Source: Mucilaginibacter rubeus | Lineage (GTDB): Bacteria > Bacteroidota > Bacteroidia > Sphingobacteriales > Sphingobacteriaceae | DNA: 64,000 nucleotides | Assembly: GCF_014643835.1 (NCBI RefSeq) | Contig: NZ_BMKD01000005.1 | Coordinates: forward strand, 62,001-126,000 | Reading direction: 5' to 3' | In this document: positions 24,832-25,550 of the stretch, one piece after another | Layout: each line of letters opens with the position of its first letter | Position numbering within the stretch: the stretch's first letter is position 1 | Made by a program: the position numbers and the translations under genes | The notes under the pieces: generated by a model | Told to the model about the DNA's origin: nothing | Seen by the model: only the letters and a program-made list of their open reading frames with translations | Databases searched by the model: none

Positions 24832-25014
24832 TATCCAATGTGTAAAACTGACACATTATTTTTTACTGTAATTTTGACGGTTTTTGCTGCGTCCGGTCAT
24901 ATATAGAAAGGTTATTTCCTTTCCTGCTTTTTTCGGCAGGTGCCCGTGAAGCTATCCGGATGATGTTATGCGAATTGGCTTAGGCTGATTACAATATTTT
25001 GGAGAGTGCAAAAT

Positions 25015-25056
25015 AAAAAAGCTGTAAAAACAGCAAAGCCCCTGATGGGCAGGGGC
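25015..25056 (-). terminator. Tandem terminators of the tRNA-like unit
   Basis: Two consecutive hairpins on the minus strand: GCCCCTG...CAGGGGC (25056-25038), then GCTGT-TTTT-ACAGC (25034-25021) followed by six T (25020-25015). They lie 39 nt after the second tRNA-like gene. Confidence 0.88.
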
Positions 25057-25094
25057 CTTTACTAACCAATTATAAACCTAAATTATGAGAAGAG

Positions 25095-25210
25095 CTGTAG
25101 GAGAAGGAGTCGAACCTTCACGGAGTGGTTATTTTTATTGCTAAAAGTTTCCCAATTTCTCCGCCACCGCGACAAGGAGGTGTGTCTGCCAAAAATTTCA
25201 CCATCCTACA
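25095..25210 (-). tRNA. Oversized class-II tRNA-like gene, apparent anticodon GUC (copy 1)
   Basis: 116 nt including the discriminator. Read 5'-3' on the minus strand: acceptor TGTAGGA pairs with TCCTACA; D stem GTG/CAC with a 14-nt loop AAATTTTTGGCAGA (Leu-type); anticodon stem CCTCC/GGTGG with a central T-T mismatch and loop TTGTCGC (U33, GUC at 34-36, C38); a 44-nt variable region with outer stem CGGAG/CTCCG and an inner hairpin TTTTA-GCAA-TAAAA; T arm GAAGG-TTCGACT-CCTTC; discriminator G73. No CCA is encoded. The arm layout is that of tRNA-Leu, but the anticodon, C38 and G73 are aspartyl-tRNA-synthetase identity elements. An aspartate tRNA normally has a short variable loop. Charging and function are unknown. 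Confidence 0.75.
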
Positions 25211-25217
25211 GTGTTGT

Positions 25218-25266
25218 AAGTCTTAAGTCATTAGTCTGAAGTTCTAAGTCTTTTGACTTAAGACTT
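25218..25266. repeat. 13-bp inverted repeat between the two tRNA-like genes
   Basis: AAGTCTTAAGTCA (25218-25230) is the exact reverse complement of 25254-25266, within a stretch of AGTCTTA/TAAGACT words. It may fold in the precursor RNA and mark a processing site. Confidence 0.6.
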
Positions 25267-25287
25267 CTGACTTTGTACTTAAACTCG

Positions 25288-25399
25288 CTGTTGGGGAAGG
25301 ATTCGAACCTTCACAGAGTGGTTAGCCCGCTTCGGGTTTTCCATGATCTCCGCCACCGGGACAAGGAGGTGTGTCTGCCAAAAATTTCACCACCCAACA
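25288..25399 (-). tRNA. Oversized class-II tRNA-like gene, apparent anticodon GUC (copy 2)
   Basis: 112 nt including the discriminator, first in the unit. Acceptor TGTTGGG/CCCAACA; D stem GTG/CAC with the same 14-nt loop as copy 1; anticodon stem CCTCC/GGTGG and loop TTGTCCC (GUC, C38); a 40-nt variable region with outer stem CGGAG/CTCTG and an inner hairpin CCCG-AAG-CGGG; T arm GAAGG-TTCGAAT-CCTTC; G73; no CCA. Compared with copy 1, acceptor positions 4-69 and 7-66 change as pairs, and the inner hairpin keeps pairing with a wholly different sequence. That covariation supports a selected RNA fold. The first base is U, rare in bacterial tRNA. Confidence 0.75.
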
Positions 25400-25445
25400 T
25401 TGTTTTTACTTTAAAGAACATTAAGCATTTCCCTTTTGCTTGATA

Positions 25446-25477
25446 CAAATTTAATAGGACTATCTATTTCTTGCAAA
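25446..25477 (-). promoter_or_regulatory. Promoter of the tRNA-like unit
   Basis: On the minus strand TTTG (25477-25474), 20 nt, TAAATTTG (25453-25446), a full match to the Bacteroidota consensus. The predicted start is near 25441, about 40 nt before the first tRNA-like gene. Confidence 0.8.
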
Positions 25478-25550
25478 TATTTCAACAAAAATATTTTATT
25501 TTTAATCGAATTTTAATTAAACTTGTATTTCAATATAGATATTCAAATTT

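Follow-up and report, generated by a model that had tools for sequence, protein, structure and literature searches.

What are the two outsized tRNA-like RNAs encoded in tandem in a 64,000-nucleotide stretch of the Mucilaginibacter rubeus genome (the window), which combine an apparently aspartate-specific anticodon with the shape of a class II tRNA? A preliminary description had read the region as one transcription unit, whose products might be charged with Asp, be read in translation, donate an amino acid or act as regulatory decoys. This interpretation was partly supported. The two RNAs were confirmed as real by their sequence, by family matches and by covariation (Table 1). Both have, as described, a 7-bp acceptor stem, a D stem formed by GTG and CAC around a 14-nt loop, a 5-bp T arm and a long variable arm. 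The cloverleaf stands with all its arms, but the anticodon stem had to be corrected: in the window's taxonomic family, a U.U mismatch lies in its middle (CCUCC/GGUGG). The anticodon loop of RNA B is TTGTCGC. A DNA search found a copy of RNA A with 100% identity in G001, the closest genome compared.

Table 1. Features of the tRNA-like RNA locus, with positions given within the window.
Feature	Position	Strand	Remarks
Two terminator-like hairpins	about 25015..25059	-	read by eye; loop of first hairpin, GCCCATC, recurs in relatives
Conserved 3' trailer GGTTTATAATTGGTTAG	25062..25079	-	upstream of terminator; exact 16-base core in the same place in many relatives
tRNA-like RNA B	25095..25210	-	116 nt including G73; C74 is the next encoded base, CCA not encoded
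Spacer between the RNAs	25211..25287	-	contains 13-bp inverted repeat AAGTCTTAAGTCA / TGACTTAAGACTT
tRNA-like RNA A	25288..25399	-	112 nt including G73; C74 is the next encoded base, CCA not encoded
Variable arm of RNA A, 40 nt	25313..25352	-	basal stem, 4-nt bulge, 3-bp stem, internal loop, apical hairpin (fold)
Anticodon loop of RNA A	25358..25364	-	TTGTCCC; G34, U35, C36 and C38 kept, C at 37
Spacer, RNA A to asnC-type gene, 151 nt	25400..25550	.	conserved A/T-rich stretches
Promoter-like TTTG-N20-TAAATTTG of the RNA unit	25446..25477	-	read by eye
AsnC-type regulator, Lrp/AsnC family, 158 aa	25551..26027	+	divergent from the RNAs

The other elements of the proposed unit were recovered as well. 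The promoter-like motif, which we take to be of the Bacteroidota type by its consensus, is kept in 23 aligned asnC-RNA spacers of relatives. The inverted repeat between RNAs A and B was seen, and the tandem terminators correspond to two terminator-like hairpins identified by eye. The A/T-rich stretches conserved in the spacer next to the asnC-type gene are possible AsnC sites. The sequence CACCUCCUU in the anticodon arm (25358-25370, in the window and its taxonomic family) equals what we take to be the 16S anti-Shine-Dalgarno tail; a corresponding role was dropped because anticodon stems differ in other taxonomic families (CCCUC/GGGGG, CCCGC/GCGGG and similar).

Standard tools did not report the pair. 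ARAGORN predicted 0 tRNA genes in the window, nor any in loci L001, L059, L081 and L112. An Rfam scan of the window gave nothing at the gathering threshold. The Rfam tRNA model had no match at E <= 5 over 24980-25550, and on G001 the same model (RF00005) found 50 tRNAs, none of them at the RNA pair. A full-text search of open-licence literature found no paper on such an RNA.

DNA and covariance-model searches established that the genomes of relatives do carry the tRNA-like fold. Within the window's taxonomic family, DNA matches at E <= 0.01, often multicopy, were obtained in 74 of 121 genomes (one of them, G070, only at 9e-4). A covariance model built from 44 sequences (R1) identified members of 107-175 nt in at least 67 of 395 genomes of the class, counting listed matches of at least 107 nt; R1 also matches tRNA-Leu genes (377 of the 395 genomes), and members were told apart by length and score. 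A second model (R2), made from 125 matches, was applied to 296 genomes of the phylum, of which at least 31 score 96 bits or more. Among the matches listed, members score at least 96 bits and others at most 57, except G178 (69.9). Two R2 matches, G726 and G734, lie outside the class and belong to one taxonomic family. A pattern scan of named genomes yielded at least 80 loci, in taxa including Mucilaginibacter, Pedobacter, Arcticibacter, Chitinophaga, Saprospiraceae, Cyclobacterium, Algoriphagus, Dyadobacter, Spirosoma and Fulvivirga. The covariance model matched 79 of 80 of these loci (104 matches), the exception being L172, from a Streptosporangiaceae MAG. Members thus occur in many taxonomic families within the class and in one beyond it.

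Several other explanations were set aside. Ordinary tRNA-Leu genes are separated by length and score (the R2 gap among the matches listed), and a 182-nt match in G506 proved to be two tRNA-Leu genes in tandem. Covariation and invariant bases exclude tRNA pseudogenes. As to a mobile origin, no match was found in plasmids, in phages or, with one exact pattern, in viral contigs. Copy number and form vary among loci. L031 contains an array of five copies 150 nt apart; L032 has five copies, each with its own promoter-like site, trailer and terminator, and L033 three copies about 700 nt apart. A 76-nt relative in G178 (L307 3039-3114) has almost no variable arm, with U1-A72, G73 and the loop CTATCTC. 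A Sphingobacteriaceae-like copy (106.6 bits, R1) in L127, a record titled Ignavibacteriales MAG, reflects either contamination or real spread.

The arms keep pairing in relatives. In an alignment of 44 relatives, 96.2% of cloverleaf cells are paired, and double-change cells number 39, compared with 10.4 in shuffles; the anticodon stem is invariant in this set. In 122 distinct rows from many taxonomic families, 97.7% of cells are paired, with 381 double-change cells against 100.3 in shuffles, a result favoured by the fitting of this alignment to the model. The cloverleaf fold is therefore supported by covariation.

Conserved positions were counted in 109 unique sequences from alignments A1 and A2. 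A1 came from 47 representatives, of which three were dropped (two copies of 142-144 nt and one cut by the locus end), and in it L001's two copies were replaced by the window pair. A third alignment, A3 (104 rows), was kept out of the main counts because its loci had been found with a pattern that demands GTCNC. G73, U1-A72 and G2-C71 are present in all 109 sequences, G34 in 105, U35 and C36 in 108 each, and C38 in 106. The exceptions at G34 are L062 (U), L090 and L091 (C), L110 (U) and the short G178 copy (A). Among genomes with the RNA (RNA+), those off the rule are G441, G304, G478 and, again, the short G178 copy at G34, and G396 at C38. U33 and a purine at position 37 are usual in decoding tRNAs. 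Here, U33 is found in 89 of 109 sequences and lacking in 20, a purine 37 in only 14 and lacking in 95, and the copies outside the class have A33. These counts indicate conservation of the loop bases recognized by aspartyl-tRNA synthetase (AspRS) but not of the decoding set.

A passage of PMC9976931 gives G73, G34, U35, C36 and C38 as the strong Asp identity set, adds that AspRS uses G1-C72 as well, and states that U1-A72 makes a tRNA a substrate for amidation by GatCAB, whereas tRNA-Asp is protected from it by G1-C72 and U20a. All five strong elements, already pointed out in the preliminary description, are present in the window RNAs and conserved in the above counts; the U1-A72 pair had gone unmentioned there. 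The D loop as parsed has one base between GG and A (the parser required it), and by analogy in numbering there is no U20a. The tRNA-like RNAs thus have the bases of a GatCAB substrate. The variable arm measures 37-131 nt in 200 parsed sequences (of 201 unique ones; L131, whose model match ended early, was left out). It contains GAYAAA facing CUAA and, in 49 of the 200, GGGUUGACCAC, a motif (for example in L029 1664-1805) that recurs across taxonomic families and in second copies of some Sphingobacteriaceae. C74 is encoded at 170 of 170 aligned ends and CCA at 16, these ends not being deduplicated.

The RNAs resemble tRNA-Asp in G73, G2-C71 and G34 U35 C36 C38 (the tRNA-Asp loop is CTGTCAC in G001, compared with CTGTCTC in many members), but differ from it in having U1-A72 for G1-C72, mostly a pyrimidine at 37, the large variable arm and a class II D arm. 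With tRNA-Leu and other class II tRNAs they share the D arm (GTG/CAC or ATG/CAT) and a long variable arm, and R1 also matches tRNA-Leu genes; unlike these, they have a far longer variable arm with motifs of its own, G73 for A73, and the R2 score gap among the matches listed. That they are translation tRNAs for Asp codons, used under special conditions, would accord with a cloverleaf with a GUC anticodon and with the preserved D and T loops. Decoding is unlikely, however, given that neither U33 nor purine 37 is conserved; moreover, G001 has two ordinary tRNA-Asp genes, the standard short tRNA-Asp expected elsewhere in the genome, and U1-A72 would let GatCAB make Asn from Asp at Asp codons. We regard this possibility as extremely remote. 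A role outside translation is likely, and among the roles initially envisaged that of amino acid donor comes closest to the evidence; the RNAs may also act as a regulatory decoy.

In many Sphingobacteriaceae the trailer recurs downstream of the last RNA, ahead of the terminator. Two genomes in which the RNA body was not found retain it next to an AsnC-type gene, G017 with the exact core and G022 with 2 mismatches. The UGGUUAG of the trailer could base-pair with CUAACCA in the variable arm. Taxonomic families other than Sphingobacteriaceae have different recurrent trailers. One could imagine a small regulatory RNA whose conserved trailer or loops pair with mRNAs, the tRNA fold providing stability; the exact 16-base core in so many Sphingobacteriaceae, and its persistence in the two genomes just mentioned, would suit such a role. 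Yet trailers differ between taxonomic families, whereas all of these share the tRNA-like body, the AspRS bases and U1-A72, and a regulatory RNA of this kind appears very improbable.

A further clue, beyond the preliminary description, came from the gene neighbourhood. The protein encoded divergently from the window RNAs scores 177 bits with the AsnC model (below the curated cut-off of 227), 88.1 with LrpA and 57.8 with Lrp, and its best solved structure is E. coli AsnC (2cg4, E 2e-37). All eight orthologues scanned score best with AsnC, six of them lying beside the RNA in their own locus, in five other taxonomic families or beyond; a paralogue scores best with Lrp. Named Mucilaginibacter records contain AsnC-type neighbours with 88-99% identity. 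When all flanking ORFs were compared with one another, one recurrent neighbour emerged, the AsnC-type gene (61 loci; next cluster, 12). Transcription of this gene diverges from that of the nearest RNA in 77 of the 78 sources having it (117 sources were surveyed, some from the same genome). Of the 79 loci in the named set, 49 have the gene no more than 600 nt from the RNA, always divergently (49/49) and 114-262 nt away; in the remaining 30, 5 of which are near a contig end, it is not near the RNA. The copies outside the class also have an AsnC-type neighbour (scored in L310), and the gene persists without the RNA in G017, G022, G185 and G142.

In E. coli K-12, asnC and asnA (asparagine synthetase) are likewise divergent, 151 nt apart. 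The gap has the same length as in the window, an equality that is perhaps coincidence; unlike in E. coli, the divergent partner here is an RNA gene and not a synthetase gene. Passages of PMC4482635 and PMC8707732 describe asnA as activated by AsnC unless Asn is present.

Some tRNAs donate amino acids in other bacteria: a non-translating tRNA-Gly of staphylococci serves cell-wall synthesis, and allo-tRNAs also stand outside ordinary decoding. The present RNAs are like these in being tRNA-like genes outside ordinary decoding, and unlike them in amino acid, in fold and in the link to AsnC and GatCAB. A non-decoding loop with AspRS elements would be expected of an aminoacyl donor, an RNA charged with Asp (then Asn) that passes the residue to a lipid, a peptide or a cell-wall precursor. 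Against this idea, which we consider quite improbable, the sole recurrent neighbour is the AsnC-type gene and not a transferase, and AsnC-type control together with the gatB link described below favours a part in Asn supply.

That link, also new relative to the preliminary description, was examined in 33 RNA+ and 35 RNA- genomes, hand-picked across taxonomic families from the R1 and R2 surveys, with GatCAB presence scored by gatB. Nine RNA- genomes are also without a family-level R2 match (G017, G022, G140, G142, G153, G185, G252, G310 and G406), and G017, G022 and G039 gave no match in the DNA search either; for 26 of the 35 the call rests on the single R1 search, with none among the matches listed. 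gatB is present in 33 of 33 RNA+ and 19 of 35 RNA- genomes. Asparaginyl-tRNA synthetase (AsnRS) is above cut-off in 68/68 genomes and GlnRS in 36/68. Because AsnRS and GlnRS are both present in those 36, GatCAB should not be needed there for translation. In this group gatB occurs in 18 of 18 RNA+ against 2 of 18 RNA- genomes (Fisher p 4e-8, ancestry ignored). The 32 genomes without GlnRS lend the link no support since all have gatB, RNA+ or RNA-; the 17 RNA- genomes among them are without AsnA and without E. coli-type AsnB. In the window's taxonomic family, 72 genomes have both RNA and gatB, 2 the RNA without gatB, 11 gatB without the RNA and 36 neither (p 1e-18, ancestry ignored). G022 belongs to the last kind, although RNA and gatB occur together in several members of its genus, g21.

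In the two GlnRS+ RNA- exceptions with gatB, G132 and G212, the gatB frame (1120 and 1112 aa, respectively) gives a match to an aminoacyl-tRNA synthetase model as well. In G132 (L344 2141-7124), a gatC-like gene, gatA and a GatB-AspRS fusion (1106 aa) stand in a row; AsnRS and GlnRS are present and the tRNA-like RNA was not detected. The same arrangement is indicated for G212. The AspRS part of the G132 fusion has His at what we take to be the non-discriminating position.

As to asparagine synthetases, AsnA was found in 7 of 68 genomes, 3 of them RNA+ (3/33). E. coli-type AsnB (E < 1e-250) occurs in 8 of 68, all RNA- and gatB-, and in 0/33 RNA+ genomes. AsnB-family proteins are above cut-off in 62 of 68 genomes and, by E-values, in 29 of the 33 RNA+. 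Those below cut-off (by E-values) are G441, G412, G356 and G402, which are RNA+ without AsnA, and G429 and G153, which are RNA- with AsnA; hence four RNA+ and zero RNA- genomes have neither synthetase.

The retention of GatCAB could have another cause, namely amidation on tRNA-Asn charged by a non-discriminating AspRS, with the RNA merely regulating, for example as a ligand of AspRS or GatCAB that reports Asp or Asn supply. In its relevant passages, PMC4206432 reports this route as shown in Bdellovibrio and proposes it there and for other bacteria. It lists Bacteroidetes among the genera, 18 of 547, that combine AsnRS, GlnRS and GatCAB and lack an Asn synthetase, and it considers GatCAB a possible vestige in bacteria that possess such an enzyme. 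The tRNA-Asn of G001, too, has U1 and A72. However, the AspRS of RNA+ genomes looks discriminating, 13 of 13 (G271 left out) being without His and with Lys at two positions that we take to be markers of non-discriminating enzymes. Furthermore, in the GlnRS+ sample gatB occurs without the RNA only as an AspRS fusion (G212 and G132, of which the G132 one was read), and the tRNA-like RNA itself carries the amidation pair. We consider this explanation unlikely.

In our opinion the RNAs are probably dedicated, non-decoding carriers under AsnC control, on which Asp attached by AspRS is amidated to Asn by GatCAB. This reading draws on the fold, the conserved bases, the divergent AsnC-type neighbour and the co-occurrence with gatB. 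The RNAs would be expressed, processed and provided with CCA. Having the anticodon-loop and discriminator determinants of AspRS, they would be charged with Asp by this enzyme; given these Asp bases, an ordinary discriminating AspRS would suffice. GatCAB would convert the RNA-bound Asp to Asn because the first pair is U1-A72. The lost U33, the lost purine 37 and the big variable arm would keep the Asn-RNA off the ribosome and unread at Asp codons, and Asn would then be released from the RNA. The divergent AsnC-type regulator would control the supply of the RNA, as AsnC does asnA in E. coli. Charging could be poor because the AspRS element G1-C72 is absent, and the variable arm might hinder AspRS. 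In most RNA+ genomes the carrier route need not be needed because AsnB-family proteins are present.

Such a carrier would resemble the tRNA-Asn route of Deinococcus, Thermus and Bdellovibrio, as outlined in passages of PMC4206432, in the presumed attachment of Asp by AspRS, in GatCAB, in U1-A72 and in having AsnRS and GlnRS alongside. In that route, however, the RNA is an ordinary decoding tRNA-Asn and AspRS is non-discriminating, whereas here a separate RNA has the Asp anticodon bases, a long variable arm and a non-decoding loop. We lean slightly towards a wider conception of RNA as a metabolic cofactor, an off-ribosome, tRNA-shaped carrier for Asn that stands in asnA's place and is switched by the same kind of regulator; its variable-arm domain may recruit enzymes or release the product.

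The tRNA-like RNAs constitute a new RNA family for annotation. If the carrier reading is true, it would explain why GatCAB is retained in bacteria having both AsnRS and GlnRS, offering the rule that where the RNA is present GatCAB is kept, and would represent a further case of an RNA used solely for making an amino acid.
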